Origin: Corallococcus macrosporus DSM 14697
GTDB lineage: Bacteria; Myxococcota; Myxococcia; Myxococcales; Myxococcaceae
Assembly: GCF_002305895.1 (NCBI RefSeq)
Contig: NZ_CP022203.1
Span: forward strand, 6,110,001 to 6,174,000
Direction: 5' to 3'
DNA: 64,000 nucleotides
In this document: in pieces, positions 6,592 to 38,169 of the stretch
How the letters are laid out: each line of letters opens with the position of its first letter
Numbering within the stretch: the stretch's first letter is position 1
Notes under the pieces: model-generated
Database searches by the model: none
Seen by the model: only the letters and a program-made list of their open reading frames with translations
Told to the model about the DNA's origin: nothing
Program-made: the position numbers and the translations under genes

Positions 6592-7536
6592 TCAGGCGAC
6601 CAGCGGCTCGAAGTCCAGTGCGCCCGCGAGTCCAGAGAAGCCCAATCCCATGCCCTCCAGCTCACGGCGGCGGGCCGGGACGATGTCGTAGCAGCTCGGG
6701 TCGGACATCACCTTGCGCACCAGCTTGTGGTTGAGCGCGTGGCCCGTCTTGTACGCCGTCATGTGGCCGATGACGGGCCGGCCGAACAGCGACACGTCGC
6801 CGATGGCGTCCAGGATCTTGTGGCGCACGAACTCGTCCGGGAAGCGCAGCCCGTCCGGGTTGAGGATGGAGACCTCGTCCACGACGATGGCGTTCTCCAG
6901 CGAGCCGCCCCGCGCCAGGCCCAGCTGCTTCAGCTTCTCCACGTCCCGCAGGAAGCCGAAGGTGCGCGCCCGGGAAATCTCCCGCGCGAAGTCGCGGTCA
7001 CCGAAGTCCAGGTCGAAGGACTGACCCTGGATGACGGGGTGCTCGAAGTCGATGGTGCAGCTGATGCGGAAGTGGCGCGCCGGCGTGAGCGAGGCCTGCT
7101 TGTCGCCATCCACCACCGACACCGCCTTGCGGATGACGAGCAGCTCCTTGGGCGCCTCCTGCTCCCGCACGCCCGCGCTCTGGATGAGGGCCGCGAAGGG
7201 CGCCGCGCTGCCGTCCATGATGGGGACCTCCGGACCGTCCAGCTCCACCCGGAGGTTGTCGATGCCCATGCCGGCCAGCGCCGCCATCAGGTGCTCCACC
7301 GTCCCCACCCGGACCCCGTCACGCCCCAGCGTGGTGGCCAGCGACGTGTCCACCACGTACTCCGCCAGCGCCGGGATGCTCACCGGCCGGGCGAGGTCCG
7401 TGCGCACGAAGACGATGCCGTGACCCGGGGGCGCCGGGCGCAGGGTGAGCGTCACCCGGGCACCCGAGTGGAGGCCCACGCCCTGCAGGGAGGCGATCTT
7501 CGAGAGGGTGCGCTGGTTGTAGGAGGACGGTCGCAT
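6592..7536 (-). CDS. lpxC: UDP-3-O-acyl-N-acetylglucosamine deacetylase
   Basis: Zinc deacetylase that commits UDP-acyl-GlcNAc to lipid A synthesis. The protein is 314 residues (E. coli 305). Zinc and catalytic residues match the family: H82 in VEHLMAAL, H239 and D243 in VRHKILDAIGD, and H266 in GHALNH. The open frame extends further upstream, but the conserved N-terminus (MRPSSYNQRTL, QGVGLHSG) fixes ATG 7536. The 5' leader has two overlapping hairpins. It is probably transcribed with the DsbA-like gene 47 bp downstream. Confidence 0.96.
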   Translation of the reverse strand: MRPSSYNQRTLSKIASLQGVGLHSGARVTLTLRPAPPGHGIVFVRTDLARPVSIPALAEYVVDTSLATTLGRDGVRVGTVEHLMAALAGMGIDNLRVELDGPEVPIMDGSAAPFAALIQSAGVREQEAPKELLVIRKAVSVVDGDKQASLTPARHFRISCTIDFEHPVIQGQSFDLDFGDRDFAREISRARTFGFLRDVEKLKQLGLARGGSLENAIVVDEVSILNPDGLRFPDEFVRHKILDAIGDVSLFGRPVIGHMTAYKTGHALNHKLVRKVMSDPSCYDIVPARRRELEGMGLGFSGLAGALDFEPLVA

Positions 7537-8004
7537 TGTGGGTGTCGCCTCGTGGCTTCTCGGTGCTGCGGAGCTTCCGCTCCGGCCCCGCCGGAGGGGC
7601 TGGAAACGTTCATCAGTAGTCTGATGTGACGCGCGAATCGAGCAATCAGCATGCCACTTCCGCGTGACATGCCATGCAGCGCCCTGGGGCTCCAAACCTG
7701 CTTCAACCCCTTGGAGTTGCTTGGCTTTTTCGTGCGTCTCGCGAGGCACCGGTTCCGGCCTGGCGCCCCTCCCCCCGTGGCGGATTGCTGATTCCCTCCT
7801 GAACCGCGACACCGATGTCCGGGATTTGTCATCCCCGTCCCTGGCATCCCCCTCGCCCGCCCCTCCCCGTCAACCCGTGTCTTCCATGCAACACGGGCGC
7901 GTCCATAGCGCAAGGAACTCAACGAAGCAAACACCCCCCGTGACAATGCCCCTCACCCGGGGGCCGTCATGCGGGGCTGCCAGTAGCGCCACGACGGGGC
8001 TGTA
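7537..8004 (-). other. lpxC upstream region with overlapping hairpins
   Basis: A 468-bp stretch with no convincing gene. Near lpxC, two stem-loops share bases and cannot form together: GGAGC-GGAA-GCTCC (7570-7583) and CTCCGGC-GGG-GCCGGAG (7580-7596), read on the minus strand. A third, CATCAG-ACTA-CTGATG, lies at 7611-7626. No clear sigma70 hexamers were found. Confidence 0.4.
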
Positions 8005-9480
8005 TCAGCGTGCGGGGGTGGTGAGGAACCTGTCCCGGAGGGCTTCCGCGTCCTGGCGATCAAAGCCCCGCCCCTGGAGGTGGGTGCGCCGGCTGACGGC
8101 GTGGAAGGTGGACTCCAGCGTCTGGATGAAGCGCCGCAGGTCCTCGGCGAGCCGGGCCCGGATGCCAGGGCCCTCCGGGGGCCAGGGCAGCTCCACCAGC
8201 AGCGAGGTGAAGCGGTCGAAGGCGTCGTAGTCGCCGTAGCGCAGGAGCTGGTAGCTGCCGTCGTGGAAGTAGCCCAGGAAGAGCTTGAGGGCGTCCAGCG
8301 CGCGCTCGGCGGCGGGCACGTCCTCGGCGCGCAGGTGGGACTCCGCGGACCGGCACAACTGGGCGTACACCCACAGGTCCTTGCGCAGCCGCAGCGCGCC
8401 CTCCTGGGGGCTCATCAGCTCGTCGAAGACGCCCTCGGACAGGCCTCCGTTGGGCGCCAGCGCCTCCACCAGCGCCACCACCTGCGTGCGCAGCACCGCC
8501 GTGAAGGCGGCGGCCGCGCGCAGCGGCGCCTCCGCGTCCCGGTCCAGGTTGACCAGCACCTCGCGGGCCACGCGCTCCGTCTCCCGGGCGATGTCGCGGG
8601 CGGCGCGCAGCGTGGCGGCCTGCAGCGACTTGGAGCCGGCCTTCGGGGACAGCTCGGCGTGCATCCACGACGCGAGCGCGTTGGCCTCGCTGCGCACCAG
8701 CGCCAGCAGCACGCGCACGCGGCGGGAGAAGGGCGGCTGCTCCTCCGCGTCCACGTAGGCCAGGTAGTGCAGGAGCCGGAAGAGGCCGAGGAAGGCGGTG
8801 GTGAAGGCGGTGCGCTGCTCCTCCTGGAGGGTGACCAGCGTGTCCAGCAGGCGCACCGAGCGGAGCCTGTCGTACTCGACGCGGAACTCCAGCGGGCGGA
8901 AGGGGCGGAAGTAGCGGTTGAGGACGATTTCGCGCAGCGACAGCTTGCCCACGTCCTGGAACAGGCCGAGGTTCGCCGCCGGCAGCTTGAGCAGGTGGTC
9001 CAGCAGGTTCTTCAGCGCGTCGAAGGCCTCGCGCAGCACGAAGAGGCTCTCCGGTGGCGTCTCCTGGTCCAGCTGCTCCTCGATCAGCGCGCGCCGGACG
9101 CGGTCATCCGCGAGCTGGGTCTCCACGTACTTGCGGAAGACCATCTTCTGGTCGCTGTCCGGGTCCTGCAGGTGGCGCGCGACGCGGATGGCGCGGTCCA
9201 TGGCGTCGCGCACGTCCGCCAGCTCCTCGCGGAAGTCCCGCGTGACGAGCGGCCTGTCGCGCGCGTCCACCACCGTGTTGAGGTTGAGGTAGCGCTCCAC
9301 CGCGCGCAGCAGCATCTCGAACTCGAAGAGCAGCTCCTCCCGCCCCTCCACGGGCACGCCCCGCAGCCAGCGCTCGCGCTCGGCGAGGAAGCCGGCGCGC
9401 GACGTCTGGGAGGCGCGCATCAGGTCGGCGTAGAAGTCGCGGGGGACGCGGGGCGGCGAGGAAGGCGTGTCCTGGCTCAT
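8005..9480 (-). CDS. conserved hypothetical helical protein downstream of ruvB
   Basis: A 491-residue protein with no recognised domain, signal peptide or membrane segment. It is rich in Leu, Arg and Glu, with long predicted helices throughout. Its start lies 6 bp after the ruvB stop on the same strand, so the two genes are almost certainly one transcript. This does not by itself imply a role in recombination. Function unknown. Confidence 0.75.
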   Translation of the reverse strand: MSQDTPSSPPRVPRDFYADLMRASQTSRAGFLAERERWLRGVPVEGREELLFEFEMLLRAVERYLNLNTVVDARDRPLVTRDFREELADVRDAMDRAIRVARHLQDPDSDQKMVFRKYVETQLADDRVRRALIEEQLDQETPPESLFVLREAFDALKNLLDHLLKLPAANLGLFQDVGKLSLREIVLNRYFRPFRPLEFRVEYDRLRSVRLLDTLVTLQEEQRTAFTTAFLGLFRLLHYLAYVDAEEQPPFSRRVRVLLALVRSEANALASWMHAELSPKAGSKSLQAATLRAARDIARETERVAREVLVNLDRDAEAPLRAAAAFTAVLRTQVVALVEALAPNGGLSEGVFDELMSPQEGALRLRKDLWVYAQLCRSAESHLRAEDVPAAERALDALKLFLGYFHDGSYQLLRYGDYDAFDRFTSLLVELPWPPEGPGIRARLAEDLRRFIQTLESTFHAVSRRTHLQGRGFDRQDAEALRDRFLTTPAR

Positions 9481-10720: not shown

Positions 10721-11800
10721 ATGAACACGAGCCCGGTGTTTCGTCCCCTCCCCTCCCTGGCTGGCGCGCGCGCCGAACCCATCCCCGGGCTGCGGCTCCA
10801 GAAGCTCCGCCGGGCCGCGCAGGATGCGCGGGAGGCCTTCGTGAAGGAGGGCCCGGTGGCCGCGGTGGCCACGTGTGAGCTCGTCACCTTCCCCTACCCC
10901 GCCCCGTTCGCCTTCAGCGGCGCGGCGCTGTCCCCGGCGCCCTACGTCATGCTGACCCACCGGATGCAGGTGGTGCAGTTCGTGGACCGGGAGGGCACGC
11001 GGCGCACCCTGCTCTTCAACCCGTCCGACTACGAGCGCGGCGTCCTCGCCCCCTTCTACCGCGCGCTGCGCGAGCGCTACGGCGCCTTCGTCTCCGACAA
11101 GGTGATGTCCACGCGGCACGGCTCGGTGCAGAGCCACCTGGCGGCGCTGGGGCTCACCCCGGCGGACGTGGACTACCTGGCCTTCGACCACCTCCACATC
11201 CAGGACCTGCGCGGCTGGCTGGGCGGAGACGGCATGCCCGCGTACTTCCCCCGGGCCCGGCTGCTGGTGCAGCGCTCCGAATGGGAGGTGGCCGCGGAGC
11301 CGCACCCCATGCAGGCGGTGTGGCTCGTCCCGGGCGGCGTCGACATCCCCCGCGAGCGCGTGGTGCTGCTGGACGGCGACGTGTGGCTGGGCCAGGGCGC
11401 GGCGCTGCTCAGCACGCCGGGCCACACGCGCGGCAACATGTCGCTGGCGGTGGCCACCTCGCGCGAGGTGTTCGTCACCAGTGAGAATGGCGTGGCCACG
11501 GAGAGCTACACCCCGCTGCAGTCCGCCATCCCCGGCGTGCGCCGCTTCGCCGAGCACATGGGCTGGGAGGTCGTCCTCAACGGCAACACGCGCGAGGACT
11601 CCCTGGACCAGTACTCCTCCATGGTGGTGGAGAAGCTGTTCGCGGGCACCTCGTCCGTGGACGGCGCGTTCGTCAACTTCCACCCGTCCTCGCAGCTCAC
11701 CGCGCACGTCATGGCGCCGGGCCTGTCGCCCACCATCGTCCTGCCCGCGCCCAACTTCGGCGACGTGCGGCCCAGCCCCGCGTCGCGGCGGGCGGCGTAG
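10721..11800 (+). CDS. metallo-beta-lactamase-fold hydrolase-like protein
   Basis: A 359-residue protein. It keeps the MBL order of elements: a degenerate first metal motif (FDHLHIQDLRG in place of HxHxDH) and an intact STPGHTRGNMSL motif about 80 residues later. The altered first motif means metal binding may differ from classical members. ATG 10721 is preceded by CCAGGAGC. It is divergent from ruvB and nearly abuts the convergent gene at 11816. The substrate is unknown. Confidence 0.75.
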   Translation: MNTSPVFRPLPSLAGARAEPIPGLRLQKLRRAAQDAREAFVKEGPVAAVATCELVTFPYPAPFAFSGAALSPAPYVMLTHRMQVVQFVDREGTRRTLLFNPSDYERGVLAPFYRALRERYGAFVSDKVMSTRHGSVQSHLAALGLTPADVDYLAFDHLHIQDLRGWLGGDGMPAYFPRARLLVQRSEWEVAAEPHPMQAVWLVPGGVDIPRERVVLLDGDVWLGQGAALLSTPGHTRGNMSLAVATSREVFVTSENGVATESYTPLQSAIPGVRRFAEHMGWEVVLNGNTREDSLDQYSSMVVEKLFAGTSSVDGAFVNFHPSSQLTAHVMAPGLSPTIVLPAPNFGDVRPSPASRRAA

Positions 11801-11815
11801 CGCGCGCGCCCGCGC

Positions 11816-13342
11816 TCAGCAGTCCTTGGCGAAGCAGAGCCACCAGGGGCGGAAGGGCACCGCGTACACCTCCAAATCCCGGGCGCCGTCCGACGCGGAG
11901 AAGAAGATGTTGAAGCCGGCGCGGACGAAGCCGGCGGGGTTCGAGGACGCCGTCCCCGGCGCGATGTCCAGCAGCCGGCTCGTCACCCAGGGGCGGCCGG
12001 CGCTGTACCAGACCTCGCGCCCGTGCCCCGCCGTCTCCGCGGAGAAGAACAGCCAGCCCGACTCGGCCGTGAGCGCCAGCGGGCTGCTCCCCACCGGGCC
12101 GGGCTCGAGGTCGCGCACCAGCAGCGTGCCCTGCGCCGTGCCGTTGCTGCGCCACAGCTCGCGGCCATGCACCCCGTCATCCGCGGTGAAGTACAGCTCG
12201 CCGTCCAACGCGACCAGGTCCTTGGGCATCGAGCCCTCCGGCCCGGGCCGGAGGTCCATGACCAGCCCCGTCCCCTCCGGCGAGCCGTCGCTGCGCCACA
12301 GCTCGCCGCCGTGGATGGCGTCGCCCGGGTTGCCGTACCAGTCGCTCGCGCCCGCGAGGAAGTACAGCGCGTCATCCAGCGCGGTGAGGTGCGCCGGGTA
12401 GTCCCCTGGGAAGGTCCAGACGCGCTCGGCGGTCAACCGCCCCTGGTGCGCCACCCAGAGCTCGGCCCGCTCCGTGCCCGGGTCCAACAGGAAGAAGAGG
12501 TGCCGGCCCGCCGCCGTCAGCCCGAAAATCACCCCGGCCCCCTGCCGGGAGAACACCTGGCGGGGCCGGCCCCGGGCGTCCACCCACCAGAGCACCGTCT
12601 CCGCGACGCTGGAGGACACCAGCGCCACGCCCCCGCCCCACGCCGTCAACGGCCCCAGGGACAGCGCGCCGGCGCCGGGCAGGAACGCCTGCACCCGCTC
12701 CGTGCCCTTCTCCGTGCCGTCGGAGCGCCACAGCTCGCGGCCCGCCACCCCGTCATCCGCCGTGAAGTAGAGGGCCCCGTCCACCTCGGTGAGGAACTCC
12801 GGCGCCGCGCCCACCGGCCCGCGCCGCACGTCCCGCACCAGCGCCGTGCCCTCCGCCGTCCCGTCGGTGCGCCACAGCTCCGCGCCGTGCACGCCGTCAT
12901 CCGCGACGAAGAAGACCTTGTCGCCCACCCGCGTCAGGTTCCGCGGCTGCGAGCCCGCCGCCCCCGAGCGCACGTCCTTCACCCGCGCCGTCTGCCGCCC
13001 CGCGTCGCTCGTCGCCCACAGCTCGCGGCCACTCACGCCGTCATCCGCGCTGAAGACCACGGCCGCGCCCGCCCTCGCCAGTTCCTGGGGGCCCGAGCCC
13101 GAAGGCCCCGGCCGGATGTCCCGCAGCCGCTCGGCCCTGTCGCTGCACACCGCCCAGGGCCGCGAAAACAGGCCGGGCGCGACGCCCTCGGGCGCCGCTG
13201 TCGAGACGTCGACAGAGGCCTGCGACGCCAGGGCCCTCCGCGCCCGCTCCGCCCCCGATTCGCCTTCCTCCAGCGGCACGGCCCCCGCGGCGCCCCCGCA
13301 GAGCAGCAACACCCCCACTGGAATGGCACGCCATGACGTCAT
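11816..13342 (-). CDS. secreted ELWRSDGT-repeat (beta-propeller-like) protein
   Basis: A 508-residue exported protein. The signal peptide begins MTSWRAIPVGVLLLCGG; a start nine codons upstream (13369) is possible. The mature part is a tandem array of repeats of about 50 residues, each with a pattern like FFVADDGVHGAELWRTDGT followed by G(T)xLVRDxRPGPxGSxPxxL. At least six units are clear. Such repeats occur in myxobacterial surface proteins and probably fold as a beta-propeller. No catalytic motif was found. Confidence 0.85.
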   Translation of the reverse strand: MTSWRAIPVGVLLLCGGAAGAVPLEEGESGAERARRALASQASVDVSTAAPEGVAPGLFSRPWAVCSDRAERLRDIRPGPSGSGPQELARAGAAVVFSADDGVSGRELWATSDAGRQTARVKDVRSGAAGSQPRNLTRVGDKVFFVADDGVHGAELWRTDGTAEGTALVRDVRRGPVGAAPEFLTEVDGALYFTADDGVAGRELWRSDGTEKGTERVQAFLPGAGALSLGPLTAWGGGVALVSSSVAETVLWWVDARGRPRQVFSRQGAGVIFGLTAAGRHLFFLLDPGTERAELWVAHQGRLTAERVWTFPGDYPAHLTALDDALYFLAGASDWYGNPGDAIHGGELWRSDGSPEGTGLVMDLRPGPEGSMPKDLVALDGELYFTADDGVHGRELWRSNGTAQGTLLVRDLEPGPVGSSPLALTAESGWLFFSAETAGHGREVWYSAGRPWVTSRLLDIAPGTASSNPAGFVRAGFNIFFSASDGARDLEVYAVPFRPWWLCFAKDC

Positions 13343-27842: not shown

Positions 27843-28859
27843 CTACGCGCGGACCGCCACCTCGCGGACGTCGCGAGACACCTCCCGAACCTCCACCTTC
27901 ACGTCGAGGAACTTCGCGATGGTGTGAAGCTGCGTCTCGGCGTGCCCGTCCAGCGGCAGCGTCCGGAACGCGCCCTCCTTCGCCAGCGCCAGGAGGAGCA
28001 GCAACTGGTCACACAGGTGCTCGCCCACCGGCACGTCCGCTTCCAGGTAGCGCTTCACCTCGGCCGCGAGCGCCTCGGCCACGGACTCCGCCCGCTTCCC
28101 GCGTTCACCAAAGCCGGTGAAGACCTCCGTGACGTGCTCGCTCTCCACCTCGGCGACCAGCACGTTGCCGGGGCCCAGCGGACGCTTCAGCTCCTCCGTC
28201 CGGAGCTCATCGGGCCGCCACTTCAGCGCGGCCCCCGCCGTGCCCAGCTCGCGCTGCGCCACGTCGAACGGAATCATCGCGATGACGGCCTTCAAGTCCC
28301 TGCGGAGCACCCGGCCGCGCTCCAGCAGGTGCAGCGGCTTCAGCGGCGCGGGGCGCACGTCCACCCGGAACCGCCCGCCCCCGGCCGGAAAGAAGCCGGC
28401 CCGCTCCAGCGTCGCCTCCACCGAAGGCCCCATGCGGCGGACCAGCGGCAGGTAGGCCCGCTGGAGGAAGTCGAACGGCGGCGCCAGCGGGTTGTGCGTC
28501 CCCCCTTCCAGCATCAGCGTGGAAGGCCCCTCCGCCAGGAGCAGGGCCGGCAGCACCGTCTGGAGCACCAGCGTCGCGCTGCCCGCGGTCCCCACCGCGA
28601 AGTGGTAGTTCCCGGCGGCCAGGGCGCGCGGGTGGAACGTCAGCTCGCGCGAGCCGAGCTCCGCGCCAGACACCTCCGCGGCCCCCACCGCCTCCGCGGC
28701 CTTCACCGACGTGAGGTGCTGACGCAGCAGGCCCGGCTTCTTCCGGCCCGCGCGGATGTTCTGGATGGTGAACGGCTGCCCCGTCACCAACGACAGCGCC
28801 AGCGAGGTGCGCAGCACCTGTCCTCCGCCTTCGCCCAACGAACCATCGATGCGCACCAT
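27843..28859 (-). CDS. rtcA: RNA 3'-terminal phosphate cyclase
   Basis: Converts RNA 3'-phosphate ends to 2',3'-cyclic phosphates using ATP through an enzyme-AMP intermediate. It is 338 residues, the same as E. coli RtcA. The N-terminus MVRIDGSLGEGGGQVLRTSL is the family signature. RAGRKKPGLLRQHL and the C-terminal GHAETQLHTI with the adenylated-histidine region (His 306-312) are present. A start 18 codons upstream is open but is rejected because ATG 28859 gives the conserved N-terminus and follows AGAGGAGG. It is downstream of rtcB, separated by a structured 168-bp spacer. Confidence 0.95.
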   Translation of the reverse strand: MVRIDGSLGEGGGQVLRTSLALSLVTGQPFTIQNIRAGRKKPGLLRQHLTSVKAAEAVGAAEVSGAELGSRELTFHPRALAAGNYHFAVGTAGSATLVLQTVLPALLLAEGPSTLMLEGGTHNPLAPPFDFLQRAYLPLVRRMGPSVEATLERAGFFPAGGGRFRVDVRPAPLKPLHLLERGRVLRRDLKAVIAMIPFDVAQRELGTAGAALKWRPDELRTEELKRPLGPGNVLVAEVESEHVTEVFTGFGERGKRAESVAEALAAEVKRYLEADVPVGEHLCDQLLLLLALAKEGAFRTLPLDGHAETQLHTIAKFLDVKVEVREVSRDVREVAVRA

Positions 28860-28928
28860 GGCGTCCTCCTCTTGCTGCCCGGCACTCACGAGCCACCCGC
28901 CACGCACTGACACGGCCGGGAAAATAGC

Positions 28929-28983
28929 GACGCCCGCGTCCCCATCCTGGCGACCTTTCGGTCTCTTGGGGAGCGCGGGCGTC
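28929..28983 (-). ncRNA. structured RNA element in the rtcB-rtcA spacer
   Basis: Read on the minus strand, GACGCCCGCG plus TCCCC pairs with GGGGA plus CGCGGGCGTC (15 bp, one bulged C). Within the closed region, GACC-GAAA-GGTC forms an inner hairpin with a GNRA tetraloop. The element is followed by TATTTT (28921-28926). It could act as an attenuator or terminator between rtcB and rtcA, or as a stable processed RNA. Confidence 0.5.
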
Positions 28984-29027
28984 TCGGTGTCTTCATCCCG
29001 GCATGGTCACCTCTCGGGCTCGGTTCG

Positions 29028-30263
29028 CTACCCCTTCACGCACACGACCTGCTTCAGGGTGTGGACCACCTCCACCAGGTCCGCCTGCGCCGCCATCACC
29101 GCGTCGATGGGCTTGTACGCAGCCGGCGTCTCGTCGATGACGTCCACGTCCTTGCGGCACTCCACGCCCGCGGTCGCCTTCACGTGGTCCTCCACCGTGA
29201 AGCGCCGCTTCGCCGCCTCACGCGACATCACCCGGCCCGCGCCGTGGCTGCAGGAGTGGAAGCTGTCCGCATTCCCCTTCCCGCGGACGATGTACGAACG
29301 CGCCCCCATGCTCCCGGGGATGATGCCCAGGTCGCCCTCACGCGCCCGCACCGCGCCCTTGCGCGTCACGAAGCAGTTCTTTCCGAAGTGGTGCTCACGC
29401 GAGATGTAGTTGTGATGGCAGTTCACCGCCGCGTCCTTCAGCTCGAACGGAGGCAGCTCGCCGCTCGACTGCAGCGCCTCCACCGCCTCCTGCAGCATGA
29501 GGGCCCGGTTCGTGGCGGCGAACTCCTGCGCCCAGCTCACCGCGAAGACGTAGTCCTCGAAGTGCTCCGTCCCTTCCGCCAGGTACGCCAGGTCCCCGTC
29601 CGGCAGGTTGATGAACCAGCGGCGCATGTCCTCCTTCGCCAGCTCGATGAAGTAGCTCCCGATGCGGTTCCCCACCCCACGCGAACCAGAGTGCAACATC
29701 AGCCACACGCCATCCGACTCATCGAGGCACAGCTCGATGAAGTGGTTCCCCGTCCCCAGCGTTCCCAGGTGCGCCAGCTCCGGCCCACGGCCGATGCGCG
29801 GGTGCTTCGCGGCGATGCGGTCATACCCCTCCACCAGCCGCGCCCACGCCTGCTGGTGCCGCGCCGGCGCCACACGCCACGCCCCCACGTCCTTGCGGCC
29901 ACCGTTGTCCGAGCGGCCGTGCGGCACCGCCCGCTCAATCGCCGAGCGCACCCCACGCAGCGAGTCCGGGAGCTGGTCCGCGCGCAGCGTCGTGCGGACG
30001 GCGATCATCCCGCAGCCGATGTCCACCCCCACCGCCGCCGGCACCACCGCTCCCACCGTGGGGACCACGCTCCCCACCGTCGCGCCGTAACCGCGGTGCA
30101 CGTCCGGCATCACCGCGACCCACTTGTGGATGAAGGGGAGGCCGCGCAGGTTGCGGAGCTGCTTCTTCGCCTCGTCCTCGAACGGAACCCCCACCGTCCA
30201 CGCCTTGATGGGGCGGCCCGCCTCGTCCGACAGCACCTCGTGGTTCCCGTTGTCGCGGCTCAT
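29028..30263 (-). CDS. rtcB: RNA-splicing ligase RtcB
   Basis: GTP- and Mn-dependent ligase that joins RNA 3'-phosphate (or cyclic phosphate) to 5'-OH ends. The protein is 411 residues (E. coli 408). Metal ligands are visible: D81 and C84 in GVDIGCGM, the GTLGTGNHFIEL motif, HSGSRGVGN, NCHHNYISREHH and the guanylated histidine in SCSHGAGRVMSR. The C-terminus AYKPIDAVMAAQADLVEVVHTLKQVVCVKG is typical. ATG 30263 follows GGTGGAG. It is transcribed from a sigma54 promoter and divergent from its regulator rtcR. Confidence 0.97.
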   Translation of the reverse strand: MSRDNGNHEVLSDEAGRPIKAWTVGVPFEDEAKKQLRNLRGLPFIHKWVAVMPDVHRGYGATVGSVVPTVGAVVPAAVGVDIGCGMIAVRTTLRADQLPDSLRGVRSAIERAVPHGRSDNGGRKDVGAWRVAPARHQQAWARLVEGYDRIAAKHPRIGRGPELAHLGTLGTGNHFIELCLDESDGVWLMLHSGSRGVGNRIGSYFIELAKEDMRRWFINLPDGDLAYLAEGTEHFEDYVFAVSWAQEFAATNRALMLQEAVEALQSSGELPPFELKDAAVNCHHNYISREHHFGKNCFVTRKGAVRAREGDLGIIPGSMGARSYIVRGKGNADSFHSCSHGAGRVMSREAAKRRFTVEDHVKATAGVECRKDVDVIDETPAAYKPIDAVMAAQADLVEVVHTLKQVVCVKG

Positions 30264-30320
30264 CGTCTCCACCTTTCCGTCGTCCGCCGGGCGCTGGGTC
30301 CCGGTCACGCTGGAGGGCTA

Positions 30321-30338
30321 GAGCAGCCGGCGTGCCAA
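30321..30338 (-). promoter_or_regulatory. sigma54 (-24/-12) promoter of rtcBA
   Basis: On the minus strand the sequence TTGGCACGCCGGCTGCTC has the GG and GC dinucleotides separated by exactly 10 bp, matching TGGCACG-N4-TTGC. Its 3' edge lies about 58 bp before the rtcB start. E. coli rtcBA is known to need sigma54 and RtcR, which agrees with the adjacent rtcR. Confidence 0.85.
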
Positions 30339-30376
30339 CCCCGCTCCCGAGGGAGGCCCTCCAGGCGAGGTGGCAT

Positions 30377-30408
30377 GTCCTATCTCTTGGGATAAAGTCC
30401 CTATCTCT
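30377..30408. promoter_or_regulatory. candidate RtcR binding region (direct repeats and dyad)
   Basis: An A/T-rich island in GC-rich DNA with two direct repeats, GTCC-TATCTCT (30377-30387) and GTCCC-TATCTCT (30397-30408), offset about 20 bp, or two helical turns. The dyad GGGA-TAAAG-TCCC lies between them. It sits upstream of the rtcBA promoter and touches the rtcR start codon, so it may serve as enhancer and autoregulatory site. Confidence 0.55.
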
Positions 30409-32037
30409 ATGGCGAAACCACGCGCGCGCAAGACGGTGGTCCTGGGGATGCTCGGGACGACGCTGGACAACGGTCAGGGGCCGCAGCGCTGGACGCGGTG
30501 GCGGCCCACGGTGGCGCTGTGCCAGCAGGAGGACCTGCTGGTGCACCGGCTGGAGCTGCTGCACCCGCCGAACGCGGCGGCGCTCGTGGCCACGCTGGAG
30601 CAGGACATCCAGCAGGTGTCACCGGAGACGGAGGTGCGGGCCACGCCCCTGGACCTCCGGAACCCGTGGGACCTGGAGGAGACCTACGGCGCGCTGCTCG
30701 ACTACGTGCGCGGCTACGCCTTCAACCCCGAGGCGGAGGACTACCTGGTCCACATCACCACGGGCACGCACATCGCGCAGATCTGCATGTTCCTGCTGGT
30801 GGAGAGCCGGCTCATCCCCGGCAGGCTGGTGCAGGTGTCACCCGACCCCAGGGACCGCGCGGGCGCGGGCACGCACACGCTCATCGACCTGGACCTGTCG
30901 CGGTACGACACGCTGGCGGCGCGCTTCCGGCAGGAGCAGCGTGAAGGCCTGGCCTTCCTCAAGTCCGGCATCGACACCCGCAACGCCGCGTTCAACCGCC
31001 TCATCGAGCGCATCGAACAGGTGGCCGTCCAGTCCCGGGCGCCCCTGCTCATCACCGGGCCCACGGGGGCGGGCAAGTCGCAGCTCGCGCGCCGCATCTA
31101 CGCCCTGAAGAAGGCCCGGCGCGGCGTGGCGGGCCCCTTCGTGGACCTCAACTGCGCCACGCTCCGGGGCGACGGCGCCATGTCCGCCCTCTTCGGTCAC
31201 GTGAAGGGCGCCTTCACGGGCGCGCTGAGCGACAGGCCCGGCCTGCTGCGGCAGGCGAATGGCGGGGTGCTGTTCCTGGATGAAATTGGTGAGCTGGGCG
31301 CGGACGAGCAGGCCATGCTGCTGCGCGCGCTGGAGGACAAGCGCTTCCTGCCCGTGGGCGCGGACCGCGAGGTGGAGAGCGACTTCCAGCTCATCGCCGG
31401 CACCAACCGCGACCTCCAGGTGGAGGTCGAACGCGGGCGCTTCCGCGAGGACCTGCTCGCGCGCATCAACCTGTGGACCTTCCGGCTCCCCGCGCTGCGC
31501 GAGCGCCCGGAGGACATCGCCCCCAACCTGCGCTTCGAACTGGACCAGTCCTCCGAGGCCGTGGGCACGCGCGTCACCATGAACAAGGAGGCCCAGGCGC
31601 GCTTCCTCGGCTTCGCCACGTCTCCCGAGGCGCGGTGGTCCGGCAACTTCCGAGACCTCAACGCCGCGGTGCTGCGCATGGCCACGCTGGCGGCCGGCGG
31701 ACGGATTACCCGGGACGTGGTGGACGAGGAGCTCGAACGGCTGCGCGACCAGTGGCGCCCCTCCGGCGCGAAGGCCGCCACGGCGACTGCGGACCTGGTC
31801 GCGGAGCTGCTGGGAGAGCGTCTCGCCAGCGAGCTGGACCGCTTCGACCGGGTCCAGCTCGCGGACGTGCTGAGCGTCTGCCGGGCGTCACGCTCGCTGT
31901 CGGACGCCGGGCGTGTGCTGTTCGCCCAGTCACGCGCCCAGAAGAAGAGCGTCAACGACGCGGACCGGCTGAAGAAGTACCTGGCCCGCTTCGGCCTCAC
32001 CTGGGCGGACCTCAGCGGGCAAGGCGCCGCGCCTTGA
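30409..32037 (+). CDS. rtcR: RtcR, sigma54 activator with CARF-type sensor domain
   Basis: A 542-residue enhancer-binding protein that activates rtcBA. The N-terminal ~180 residues (KTVVLGMLGTTLDNGQGPQRW, then YLVHITTGTHIAQICMFLLVES) match the RtcR CARF-related sensor domain, which in the family recognises RNA-end or cyclic nucleotide ligands. The AAA+ domain has Walker A TGPTGAGKSQ, GHVKGAFTGA (intact GAFTGA loop) and Walker B GGVLFLDEIGE. The C-terminal helix-turn-helix is at SRSLSDAGRVLFAQSR. ATG 30409 (MAKPRARKTVV) is chosen over an earlier ATG because conservation begins there. Confidence 0.95.
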   Translation: MAKPRARKTVVLGMLGTTLDNGQGPQRWTRWRPTVALCQQEDLLVHRLELLHPPNAAALVATLEQDIQQVSPETEVRATPLDLRNPWDLEETYGALLDYVRGYAFNPEAEDYLVHITTGTHIAQICMFLLVESRLIPGRLVQVSPDPRDRAGAGTHTLIDLDLSRYDTLAARFRQEQREGLAFLKSGIDTRNAAFNRLIERIEQVAVQSRAPLLITGPTGAGKSQLARRIYALKKARRGVAGPFVDLNCATLRGDGAMSALFGHVKGAFTGALSDRPGLLRQANGGVLFLDEIGELGADEQAMLLRALEDKRFLPVGADREVESDFQLIAGTNRDLQVEVERGRFREDLLARINLWTFRLPALRERPEDIAPNLRFELDQSSEAVGTRVTMNKEAQARFLGFATSPEARWSGNFRDLNAAVLRMATLAAGGRITRDVVDEELERLRDQWRPSGAKAATATADLVAELLGERLASELDRFDRVQLADVLSVCRASRSLSDAGRVLFAQSRAQKKSVNDADRLKKYLARFGLTWADLSGQGAAP

Positions 32038-34069: not shown

Positions 34070-34106
34070 AAAAAAATCCGGGGCGCCCCCGAGCGGGAGC
34101 GCCCCG
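34070..34106 (-). terminator. intrinsic terminator of the sigma/CHAT/peptide operon
   Basis: On the minus strand a GC-rich hairpin (GGGGCGCTCCCG / CGGGGGCGCCCC, 12 bp with one mismatch and a very short loop) is followed by GGATTTTTTT. This is a canonical Rho-independent terminator. It lies 55 bp past the stop of the 56-residue peptide gene, supporting that gene as the last of the operon. Confidence 0.85.
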
Positions 34107-34161
34107 TGAAACCTGTATCGCCCGCGCGATTCAGGACAAACCAGGAATCTGTCACCTGGGT

Positions 34162-34332
34162 TCAGCCGGCATCGCTTGGTTCATCCGGCTGGGACGCCGT
34201 CATCACGGACATCTTCGCCGAGAACGGCGGGTGTGCCGTGAGCCCCGGCGTGGGCTCCGGCGGCGGATCATGCGGATTGATGCTGACCACGGCCCCGTCG
34301 CGCGCTGGCTTCTTCGCGAGCTTCTTCCCCAT
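34162..34332 (-). CDS. 56-residue hypothetical peptide downstream of CHAT anti-sigma gene
   Basis: A small gene starting ATG 34332, preceded by AGAGGGGG at good spacing. The product MGKKLAKKPARDG... has a basic N-terminus, a Pro-rich middle (INPHDPPPEPTPGLTAHPP) and an acidic C-terminus, and no cysteine. It lies between the CHAT-protease gene and the operon terminator on one strand. Function unknown. It could be a substrate, activator or structural partner of the CHAT protease, but this is inference from position. Confidence 0.6.
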   Translation of the reverse strand: MGKKLAKKPARDGAVVSINPHDPPPEPTPGLTAHPPFSAKMSVMTASQPDEPSDAG

Positions 34333-34428
34333 CGCATCCCCCTCTGCGCGGCACCGGCGGCGTCCGGCGGCATGCCGGCATCCCCGCCTCCGCATCGGTA
34401 CTACGCGGCGAGTCGGATTTCTTGACGC

Positions 34429-37400
34429 TCATTCGAAGAGGAGGATGCCGTGGACCCAGTCCGCGGCCGGGTGGGCCTCCAGCCACGTGCGCCGCTCGTC
34501 GCGGAGCGCCTGGGCCGCGGGCGCGCCGCTCCGGATGCGCTCGCGCACCGCTTCGAAGAAGCGCCCCGCCGAGTCGGGAATCTCCACCGTGGAGGCCAGC
34601 ACCGTGGACGCCCCGGCTTCGATGAAGGCCACCGGCAGGCTGAAGGACTCATGAAGGAAGGGCGTGGCCCGCGCCGCGCTGCACGTGGCCAGCAGGACCA
34701 GAGGGGCGCGCTCCAGCTTCAGCGCGCGGACCTGGGCGGCGGACAGCGCGTACCGGCCGTCCGGTTCAGGCGCCAGCACCACCAGCGAGGCGTCCGACAT
34801 CTCCGGACTGAAGGCGCCGTGCGCGTGAATCTCCACCTCGCTGGCCTGCACCATGGCGGCGAGCACGCGCGCGGGCGTGGCCTGCATGCCGGACAGCTCG
34901 ATGCGCTGGGAATCCCCCCCGAGCGGCGGCGCCAGGGGAAGCAGCCGCGGGAGCCCCAGCGCGGCGGGGGCCTCCACCGCGTTGACGACCAGGTGCGTGC
35001 CGCTCCCGGCCGCCGCCCCCCGCGCGGCTCCGGCGGGGCGCCCCACGCGGTAGCTCCACGCGAGGTCCGGGGGGAGCAGGCCGCGCAGGCCATGAACGGG
35101 AGGGAGCGCGAGCACGTCCACGCGCTCGCAGTCCCCCAGCGCGGCCTGGAGCGACGGCGGCACCAGCCCGGAGGCCTCCCGTCCCAGGGGCTGGGCGCGG
35201 CTGGCGTCGAAGTGCCCCAGCAGCTCGCCTCCGGCCCCGCGCAGCGCCACCACCGAACGCTCATAGTCCACCGCGACGCCCAGCACGCACCGCGCGGGGA
35301 CGTCCACCTGGAGCGCGGCGCCCATGAGCGCCAGGGCCTGCCCGGCGTCGCCCATGCGGCCGGCCTCGTGCGCCAGGACGTTGTAGGCCCCCATCCGCGT
35401 CTTGCGCGCGTCCACGTCGTCGGCAAGCGCCTCCGCCTGCTGGATGGCGCCCCGCAGCAGCTCCAACCCGGTGGCCCGGTCGTGCTCGAGCACGAACTGC
35501 CCCTCGGCGAAGCTCAACTGCGCGAGCTTCCCCGGCGAGGGCTGACTCCGGCGCAGCTCGGACAGGGTGCGGCGCAGCAGGTCCGCGTCCTGGCTGTCGG
35601 CGCCGAAGCGCGCCAGGTACGACAGCAATAGCGCGCCGGGCAGCCCCAGGGGCCGGCCACACGCCTGCGCCAGCTCCAGTTCGCGCCGCGCCTCCTGGGC
35701 GTCGAACTCCAGCCACGACAGGTAGGCGAGGTTGCGGTGGACATACGTGCGCTGCTCACAGAGGTCCGGCGTGCGGGCCAGGGACTCACGCAGGTAGGCG
35801 CGCGCGCTGGTGACCTCCAGCCGGTACCGCGCGATGTGCGCCAGCTCCTGGAGGAACTGCTGCTCCAGCTCCCACTCCTCCAGCTCCCGGGACGCCAGCC
35901 AGCCGCTCCACGCCTGCTCGAAGGCCTCCGCCGGGCGGTTGAGCGCGAGGTAGAGGTCCGACAGCCGCTTCTTCAGCGTGGCGCAGCGGTAGGACAGCCC
36001 CTTGCCCTGACAGGCGCCCACGGCCGCGCGAAGCCGGGCCTCCGCCTTCCACCACGCCCCCGCGCGCTCCTCCGCGCCCGCCAGCTCGCGCTCGGCCAGC
36101 AGCGACACCCAGGGGTCCTCGGCCTCGCGCGCCAGCCGCGTGAAGTCCTCCAGGTGCCGTGAGGCGGCCATCTGGTTGATGAGGCCGCCCAGGTACAGGT
36201 CGTCCTCGCCCGAGCGCCGCAGCGCCTCCAGGAAGGGCGCCGGCGAGGCCAGCTCGCCCCGCACGAGCTTCGCGTAGTCCGCCGCCAGGGGCGCGCGACG
36301 GCCGAAGTCCCGCGCCGACACCCGGAGCACGTAGTCACGAAGCACCGCCCCGCCCTGGACGCCATCCAGCACGTCCGCCAGCGGCAGCAGGCGCAGGGCG
36401 CCCTCGCGCGACGGCGCGGCCCGCACCGCGTCGTAGAACGCCAGCCGGACGATGCCCGGGAACCGCTTCGCCTCCTCCAGCGGCAGCCGGGCCCGCGGGT
36501 CCACCATCAAGTCCCGCACGGCCGCGCGAGCCCCCTTCCAGGCCCGGCCCCGCGCCTGCGTCTGATGCCGGAGCGCCGTGGCGCGGATGCGCGCCTCCTC
36601 GCTCCAGCCCGGCTCTCCGCGCGTCACCACCGCGTCGAACGCCTCCGCGGCCAGCAGGGTCAGCCCCATCTCCCGCAGCACCAGGGCCCGGTTCCACTGC
36701 GCCTGGGCGTGCTCCGGCGCCTGCCGCAGCACCCCGTCCAGCAGGGCCAGGGCCTCCTCCGGGCGCCCCTGCTCCAACGCGATGATGGCCAGGTCGTTGT
36801 CCCGGTCCGCGGAGGGCGGCAGCCGGTGGAGGAAGTCGGAGGCCTGACGCAAATCTCCGCGGACCAGGTACGCGGCGGCGATGCCGTGCAGGTCTCCCCG
36901 GTCCTCCAGGTCCGCCAGCGCGCGAAGCGGCAGCACCGGCGCGGTGGAAGGCGCACCCGGCCCCGCACGCAGGGGCGCATAGGGACGGTGCCCGTCCGCG
37001 CGCCCATACGCCACCCGCGCCTCGATGAGCCGGGAGGACGCCTTCGCGAGCCAGACCTCCTGCTGGACCTCCCGCCCGGCGCTCTTGAAGACGAGCACCA
37101 GGACGATGGCCGCCGCCAGCGCCCCCACCGCGCCCGGTGCCCAGCGAGCCCACCGCCAAGGGGCCCGTCCCGAGGCGGGCACCCCGGCCGCGTCACGCGC
37201 CGCAGCGGCCCCGGGCGGCATCCAGGTCTCCAGCGCGTCCTCCTCCTCCTGCGCCAGCGCCCGCGGGTCGCCCAGCGTCTGGAAGCCCAGCAGCTCCAAC
37301 TGCATGGCCTCGTGCAGTCCGGAGGCGCATGGGTCACAGCGGGCGAGGTGATGCCGGAAGTTCTCTTCGTCGATGGGGGCCAGCTCGCCGTCGAGGAAGA

Positions 37401-37431
37401 GGGACAGCCTGTTGCAGAGCGAGCCCATCAT
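34429..37431 (-). CDS. anti-sigma (zf-HC2)-TM-helical repeat-CHAT protease fusion
   Basis: A 1000-residue protein joining a regulator to a caspase-like protease. The N-terminal anti-sigma zinc domain has C6 and the H28-x3-C32-x2-C35 motif (HHLARCDPC), with no signal peptide. A single membrane segment lies at about 99-116 (APGAVGALAAAIVLVLVF). Residues about 130-690 are helical TPR-like repeats. The C-terminal CHAT domain (~700-1000) has a catalytic dyad: His871 in VEIHAHGAFSP and Cys917 in VLLATCSAARA. The ATG overlaps the sigma-factor stop (ATGA), so translation is coupled. It probably binds and restrains the sigma factor at the membrane, with proteolysis as a release or signalling step. Confidence 0.85.
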   Translation of the reverse strand: MMGSLCNRLSLFLDGELAPIDEENFRHHLARCDPCASGLHEAMQLELLGFQTLGDPRALAQEEEDALETWMPPGAAAARDAAGVPASGRAPWRWARWAPGAVGALAAAIVLVLVFKSAGREVQQEVWLAKASSRLIEARVAYGRADGHRPYAPLRAGPGAPSTAPVLPLRALADLEDRGDLHGIAAAYLVRGDLRQASDFLHRLPPSADRDNDLAIIALEQGRPEEALALLDGVLRQAPEHAQAQWNRALVLREMGLTLLAAEAFDAVVTRGEPGWSEEARIRATALRHQTQARGRAWKGARAAVRDLMVDPRARLPLEEAKRFPGIVRLAFYDAVRAAPSREGALRLLPLADVLDGVQGGAVLRDYVLRVSARDFGRRAPLAADYAKLVRGELASPAPFLEALRRSGEDDLYLGGLINQMAASRHLEDFTRLAREAEDPWVSLLAERELAGAEERAGAWWKAEARLRAAVGACQGKGLSYRCATLKKRLSDLYLALNRPAEAFEQAWSGWLASRELEEWELEQQFLQELAHIARYRLEVTSARAYLRESLARTPDLCEQRTYVHRNLAYLSWLEFDAQEARRELELAQACGRPLGLPGALLLSYLARFGADSQDADLLRRTLSELRRSQPSPGKLAQLSFAEGQFVLEHDRATGLELLRGAIQQAEALADDVDARKTRMGAYNVLAHEAGRMGDAGQALALMGAALQVDVPARCVLGVAVDYERSVVALRGAGGELLGHFDASRAQPLGREASGLVPPSLQAALGDCERVDVLALPPVHGLRGLLPPDLAWSYRVGRPAGAARGAAAGSGTHLVVNAVEAPAALGLPRLLPLAPPLGGDSQRIELSGMQATPARVLAAMVQASEVEIHAHGAFSPEMSDASLVVLAPEPDGRYALSAAQVRALKLERAPLVLLATCSAARATPFLHESFSLPVAFIEAGASTVLASTVEIPDSAGRFFEAVRERIRSGAPAAQALRDERRTWLEAHPAADWVHGILLFE

Positions 37432-38030
37432 GCGCTGCCTCCCCCGTCGCCTCCGGTGAGCGGCAACAGCAGCACCTTCAATTCCTTGCGCGCCTGGTAG
37501 AGCCAGCTCCCCACCGTGCCTTCGGGGACGCCCATGCGCTGGGCGATGGCGCGGTAACGCAGCCCCGAGGCGTGCAGCACGTACGCCTCGCGCACCCGGG
37601 GGTTCGGGAGCTGGGCAATGGCCGCCTGGAAGTCCTGCTCGGAGATGTGCTCCCAGGCCTCACGGGCGTCCGGCTCGGGGGCCGCGGCCGCCTCGCGCAC
37701 CAGCCGCAGCTCCGGCCGGTCCTGCTCCAGCAGCTCCGAGCGCCGCTTACGGCACTGGTCCAGGAAGTGATTGGTGAGCGCCCGACACAGCCAGGCCCTG
37801 TAGACGGGCTCCGGCTGCGCGGCGAGCGCGCCGTGATGCAGCAGCCCACGCGTGAGCGCCTCCTGCACCAGGTCTTCCGGATCGATGCCTCCCTGACCGC
37901 ACAGCCGCTTCGCCAGGGCCAACAACATGGGCCTGACACGATGCGCGAACGCCTCGAACCCGTCGGGATGCACATCCGTACTGTAGGCCACAGGAATGCG
38001 AATGACTGTGGCAATGCGATGGCCGCTCAT
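37428..38030 (-). CDS. ECF-like RNA polymerase sigma factor
   Basis: A 200-residue sigma70-family factor. Region 2 (MLLALAKRLCGQGGIDPEDLVQEALTRGLL, then RAWLCRALTNHFLDQCRKRR) and region 4 (LPNPRVREAYVLHASGLRYRAIAQRMGVPEGTVGSWLYQARKEL) are clear, while regions 1.1 and 3 are missing, as in ECF factors. The start ATG 38030 follows AAGGAGG; a longer frame from 38075 exists. It is the first gene of the sigma-anti-sigma/CHAT-peptide operon. Its target promoters cannot be predicted here. Confidence 0.9.
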   Translation of the reverse strand: MSGHRIATVIRIPVAYSTDVHPDGFEAFAHRVRPMLLALAKRLCGQGGIDPEDLVQEALTRGLLHHGALAAQPEPVYRAWLCRALTNHFLDQCRKRRSELLEQDRPELRLVREAAAAPEPDAREAWEHISEQDFQAAIAQLPNPRVREAYVLHASGLRYRAIAQRMGVPEGTVGSWLYQARKELKVLLLPLTGGDGGGSA

Positions 38031-38169
38031 CGACCCGGCCTCCTTCCACGCCTCTCGAAACGGAGTCCGGGGCAATCCTTGGAAGGCCGTCGTGAAGCAG
38101 ACTTAATCGCACCGAGTTGCGCTTGCTCACGGACATCCCTGCAGCCCCGCGGGCCGGGGATGCGCGACG

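Follow-up and report, generated by a model that had tools for sequence, protein, structure and literature searches.

A DdvA-family anti-sigma factor with a CHAT protease domain in Corallococcus macrosporus, and the division of the same domains between two genes in related loci

Organisation of the operon

The window, meaning the whole stretch of 64,000 nucleotides taken from C. macrosporus DSM 14697 (contig NZ_CP022203.1, positions 6,110,001 to 6,174,000), carries an operon with the following features, given in window coordinates.

38055..38082, minus strand: putative autoregulated ECF promoter, CCAAGGATT-N11-CGTTTCGA, a block kept in 24 orthologues
37428..38030, minus strand: ECF sigma factor of 200 amino acids with a DdvS-like role (Pfam Sigma70_r2 and Sigma70_r4_2; TIGR02937 above cut-off)
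34429..37431, minus strand: anti-sigma factor of 1000 amino acids with a CHAT protease domain, DdvA family (PDB 8rot, Pfam, structural model)
37276..37431, minus strand: zinc-binding anti-sigma (ZAS/zf-HC2) domain, residues 1-52 (Pfam; C6, H28, C32, C35; match to PDB 8rlz)
37081..37143, minus strand: transmembrane helix, residues 97-117 (hydropathy)
35311..36927, minus strand: TPR/helical repeat region, residues 169-707 (Pfam TPR_16; predicted helices, pLDDT mostly >85)
34432..35298, minus strand: CHAT domain, residues 712-1000 (Pfam; match to the Craspase and separase CHAT fold)
34819..34821, minus strand: codon of the predicted catalytic His871, invariant in 119 aligned CHAT domains
34681..34683, minus strand: codon of the predicted catalytic Cys917, invariant in the same 119 domains
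34203..34373, minus strand: conserved gene of 56 amino acids, third in the operon (tblastn and translation in relatives)
34079..34106, minus strand: intrinsic terminator (12-bp stem with 11 GC pairs, then a T run)

The sigma gene starts with the ATG at 38030 and shares a four-base ATGA overlap (37428-37431) with the anti-sigma gene. An earlier note on this DNA had described this overlap, the 56-residue gene and the terminator, and all were found; C6, H28, C32, C35, H871, C917 and the membrane segment also lie where the note had placed them. Pfam agrees with these assignments, locating zf-HC2 at residues 8-36 (8e-7), TPR at residues 213-272 (4e-9) and CHAT at residues 840-987 (1.5e-15) of the 1000-residue protein, the CHAT match spanning only profile positions 119-270 of 289. 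The domain matches and the hydropathy profile thus bear out the note's view that a sigma-restraint domain, helical repeats and a CHAT domain are united in one membrane protein. The linker between the ZAS domain and the membrane helix (residues 53-95) is predicted to be disordered (pLDDT <50), and both its length and its sequence vary across the family. The 56-residue ORF with its strong ribosome-binding site is conserved in all 12 orthologous loci read, and its product carries the motif INP[HK]DPPPExTxGLT...SA[KR]MSV.

A scan of ten neighbouring genes with Pfam and PADLOC found ordinary genes, among them RtcA/RtcB/RtcR, a histidine kinase, a transporter and Fe-S assembly genes. The RNA repair genes, RtcA and RtcB with the divergent regulator RtcR, lie near the operon at 27843-32037. 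Matches to the defence proteins DndA/SspA among the neighbours were attributed to an IscS-like cysteine desulfurase. The scanned neighbours include neither Cas7-11 nor Csx30, components of the type III-E CASP system, and a CRISPR/Craspase link of the operon was rejected on these scans. A Cas10 palm domain is present in the genome, 2.5 Mb from the operon.

Relation to DdvA

A search of PDB sequences matched the 1000-residue protein along its full length to 8rot/8rw5 (E 1.1e-136), entries named 'CHAT domain-containing protein', and its ZAS domain to 8rlz, 'Antisigma factor DdvA', which is the N-terminus of the 8rot/8rw5 protein. We take the 8rot protein to be that of Myxococcus xanthus, going by the name DdvA and by the DdvA papers. 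The AlphaFold model of the window protein, computed from a 28-sequence alignment, has a pLDDT of 85, and its residues 125-1000 align to 8rot_A with Z 44.8 (3.7 A over 859 residues); the next structural matches are Craspase TPR-CHAT chains (Z ~20), followed by separases (Z ~17).

DdvA and its ECF sigma factor DdvS are reportedly the subject of Bernal-Bernal 2018 (NAR, gky475) and 2024 (Sci Adv, adp1053). The 2024 abstract is said to describe a periplasmic TPR-CHAT part, a dimer with the active sites facing each other, and an active site that is incomplete and without three helices that CHAT domains generally share; it reportedly suggests that the protein cuts itself in trans ahead of cleavage by RseP. 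The window protein shares with DdvA the order ZAS, membrane helix, TPR and CHAT, the His and Cys dyad, an ECF sigma partner and a match over the full sequence and fold. The PDB titles, released in November 2024, read 'Cryo-EM structure of the transmembrane anti-sigma factor DdvA' and 'Symmetry expansion of dimeric transmembrane anti-sigma factor DdvA', the dimeric entry being 8rw5. PMC4374960 (J. Bacteriol.) states that inactivation of DdvA renders DdvS active and that the DdvS promoter requires DdvS.

The two proteins differ in that the window protein is only ~37% identical to DdvA and falls on another branch of the tree, and in that a CBASS/type III-B CRISPR island adjoins DdvA and is under its control, whereas none adjoins the window pair within the ten neighbour genes scanned. 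No DdvA orthologue was seen in the genome of the window, where the four CHAT proteins are the window protein, two paralogues and one unrelated protein. Among the fetched loci, the true relative of DdvA belongs to Archangium (62%) and lies on a branch other than that of the window pair. Since the DdvA orthologues form a different clade, the window pair is a paralogue and not DdvA itself; judged by sequence relationships, the protein is a member of the DdvA family whose single-locus architecture is already known. The arrangement had been held to be new, its parts being familiar solely from individual proteins of type III-E CRISPR, but DdvA has the identical order in a single polypeptide and a solved structure, which rules out a new class of anti-sigma protease. 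By analogy with DdvA, the window protein probably binds and inhibits the adjoining sigma factor, and its homology suggests that it is a dimer.

Distribution of the family and conservation of the catalytic dyad

Each of the 27 Myxococcus genomes examined contains 4-11 family matches, and the family thins quickly outside the genus. A contig scan found relatives named as Myxococcus, Pyxidicoccus, Corallococcus, Archangium, Hyalangium, Citreicoccus, Nannocystis and a Kofleriaceae bin. Orthologues of the window protein (62-88%) occur in most of the 27 genomes, always with the sigma gene (70-93%) upstream, and M. xanthus AM003 has an orthologue at 86%. The sigma/anti-sigma pair is kept in all 24 orthologous loci examined, and the pairing is therefore far from chance. 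A sigma gene lies directly upstream of every distinct protein that combines ZAS with CHAT (70/70) and of no protein lacking ZAS (0/48); these counts, like that of the aligned CHAT domains, concern related sequences and hence are not independent events. The homologue search proposed in the earlier note thus places a sigma gene beside every fused member.

His871, Gly872 and Cys917 are invariant in the 119 aligned CHAT domains (118 distinct sequences and the query), down to ~36% identity, in a region where only 21 of 311 positions are invariant. The dyad is also intact in proteins that have lost the ZAS domain. Such invariance, the ZAS-less proteins included, would be expected if selection keeps catalysis. 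Routine loss of the dyad, named in the note as an outcome that would speak against its proposal, was not found. The exception is one truncated orthologue (8488-11175 in L020/L042), outside the count of 119, in which a stop codon inside CHAT removes Cys917 and the tandem neighbour is intact. Four cysteines, C474, C483, C715 and C768, are invariant in the family as well.

Several loci show other arrangements. TPR-CHAT membrane proteins without ZAS also make up at least two other clades (L043, L049, L050, L056 and relatives), which have an intact dyad and no sigma gene directly upstream. In three loci (L032, L033, L034; 4.5-5.7 kb), a broken second copy lies directly 3' of the fused gene; it is a ZAS-TPR remnant, sometimes with a sigma fragment, and resembles a decaying tandem orthologue of the window gene. 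Elsewhere in the genome of the window, at ~2.554-2.559 Mb of the contig (L007, 4236-9075), another operon encodes a sigma-70 factor, two unnamed products of 256 and 179 aa, and a CHAT protein that is separate from the sigma factor, is probably secreted and has a complete CHAT domain (Pfam 1.2e-60).

Putative promoter of the operon

The block CCAAGGATT-N11-CGTTTCGA upstream of the sigma gene (38082-38055) is conserved in 24 orthologues, most of the flanking DNA being not conserved. The conserved block and a related motif in the split clade described below make a putative autoregulatory ECF promoter the simplest reading. The only exact copy in the genome is the promoter of the sigma gene itself; the next-best match has 2 mismatches and lies inside a coding frame, and a looser pattern gives 10 genome matches, close to the 4 in a backward control. 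The genome search with this motif found no targets beyond the operon itself.

Separation of the protease and the anti-sigma factor in a related clade

In 20 cases a TPR-CHAT protein lacking ZAS lies ~2.0 kb upstream of a ZAS-TPR protein of 275-478 aa lacking CHAT, and each of these ZAS-TPR genes is preceded by a sigma gene. One such locus (L005) belongs to the window's own genome, with TPR-CHAT at 6734-9478, sigma at 10975-11535 and ZAS-TPR at 11532-12944 of the locus, a cupin-like gene lying on the opposite strand between the TPR-CHAT gene and the sigma/ZAS-TPR pair. Another is found in M. xanthus (L088), and further ones include L046, L047, L048, L057, L101, L105 and L111. Some ZAS-less proteins (L078-L083) lie at the ends of contigs; they are probably truncated and play no part in this argument. 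Of 22 loci classed as split, 19 have the motif YCAAG-N15-CGTYT upstream of sigma (0.015 expected), and the motif precedes the TPR-CHAT gene in 10 of 16 (0.02 expected). The expected counts serve as a guide and not as a test, since the motif was picked after some of its loci had been viewed.

A tree built on the TPR region puts the TPR-CHAT genes of the split loci, together with a few partial copies, into a single clade (support 100) and the 20 short ZAS genes from those loci into a second (support 98). Both clades branch from within the fused genes, and the farthest hosts, Nannocystis and Kofleriaceae, have the fused form. This fits a duplication followed by complementary domain loss, an order of events that we infer with caution because the tree is a quick one, midpoint-rooted for drawing. 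Separate TPR-CHAT and ZAS-TPR genes with a common promoter motif fit an action in trans. The clade may thus hold a three-gene circuit that arose after duplication and has both halves under one promoter motif. Its caspase-like membrane protease, intact, free of ZAS and devoted to this task, would cut the CHAT-less anti-sigma factor beside the sigma gene in trans, the matching TPR arrays bringing them together; we put this forward tentatively, at slightly less than an even chance.

Proposed mechanism and alternatives

Basic residues precede the transmembrane helix in the hydropathy analysis. These residues, the invariant cysteines, which fit periplasmic disulphides, and the DdvA precedent suggest that the N-terminus is cytoplasmic and that the TPR-CHAT part is periplasmic. 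Known anti-sigma factors of the RseA/RsiW type are built likewise, with a cytoplasmic anti-sigma domain, a single membrane helix and a periplasmic sensor part, but have no protease domain of their own. Separase resembles the window protein in joining helical repeats to a C-terminal caspase-like protease; it differs in being eukaryotic, in cleaving cohesin and in having no anti-sigma domain.

Starting from the observed architecture, the relatedness to DdvA, the invariant dyad, the obligate sigma linkage and the promoter-like element, a scheme may be proposed for a pair of the DdvS/DdvA type. The cytoplasmic ZAS domain would tether the ECF sigma factor to the inner membrane, with a separase- or Craspase-like TPR-CHAT part beyond the one membrane-crossing helix. 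An envelope signal, which the TPRs would probably bind or sense, would activate the His871/Cys917 dyad. Within the anti-sigma dimer, CHAT would then cut the partner subunit in its periplasmic part, an autocleavage in trans. As any CHAT cut would fall on the outer face, a further cut within the membrane would have to follow; a protease of the RseP type would free ZAS-sigma, and the freed sigma would transcribe its own operon and other targets. We consider this scheme as a whole to be reasonably probable. A possible lead to the cut is an E-x-R motif that follows the membrane helix (E137/R139). Fused, ZAS-less and CHAT-less proteins all have it, and it is reminiscent of the separase site; it is taken as a lead only, because this region is ordered both in the model and in DdvA.

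The main competitor is a CHAT domain that is a pseudo-protease, a folded periplasmic module for sensing or dimerisation, with the signal exposing the anti-sigma factor to ordinary site-1/site-2 proteases (DegS/RseP-like). It would account for the Pfam CHAT profile being matched only in its C-terminal part; other anti-sigma factors are indeed cut by separate proteases, and the literature covered reports no proteolysis by any family member. The invariant cysteines and dyad could on this account be structural rather than functional. A His and Cys dyad invariant in 119 sequences where so few positions are, even in proteins with no anti-sigma domain, is harder to explain in this way, and we regard a pseudo-protease as rather unlikely.

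The earlier note had proposed that ligand binding activates CHAT to cut the anti-sigma linker or a partner. The cut of a partner is retained in the scheme of cleavage in trans. A direct cut of the cytoplasmic linker, for which the linker's length and predicted disorder would be suitable, is impossible for a CHAT domain on the predicted periplasmic side: the membrane helix with its preceding basic residues stands between them, the DdvA entries of identical order describe a transmembrane protein, and the linker is not conserved. This route is accordingly given very little weight. It is more improbable still that the operon is a non-CRISPR branch of the RNA-triggered, defence-linked Craspase (Csx29-Csx30-sigma) system. 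Craspase/CASP does combine a TPR-CHAT protease (Csx29) of common fold with an ECF sigma factor (CASP-sigma) and an inhibitor, a logic like that of the window system, but its proteins are separate and cytoplasmic, are triggered by RNA and act on the substrate Csx30 (PMC10028731). The window protein is a membrane protein only 11% identical, and the scan of its neighbours turned up neither Cas7-11 nor Csx30 nor any further defence gene. The reading preferred here thus remains cleavage of a partner subunit by a periplasmic CHAT domain.

Significance

The novelty lies in the paralogue and, more so, in the split module of its relatives; the division of anti-sigma factor and protease between two genes is new as far as could be checked. 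The DdvA architecture belongs to a large family with several members in each Myxococcus genome and not to a single defence regulator, and the window member keeps its dyad unbroken with no known defence island adjoining. The natural split offers a simple genetic test of the cleavage step of the DdvA model, namely whether CHAT cuts the anti-sigma factor, and whether it does so in trans.
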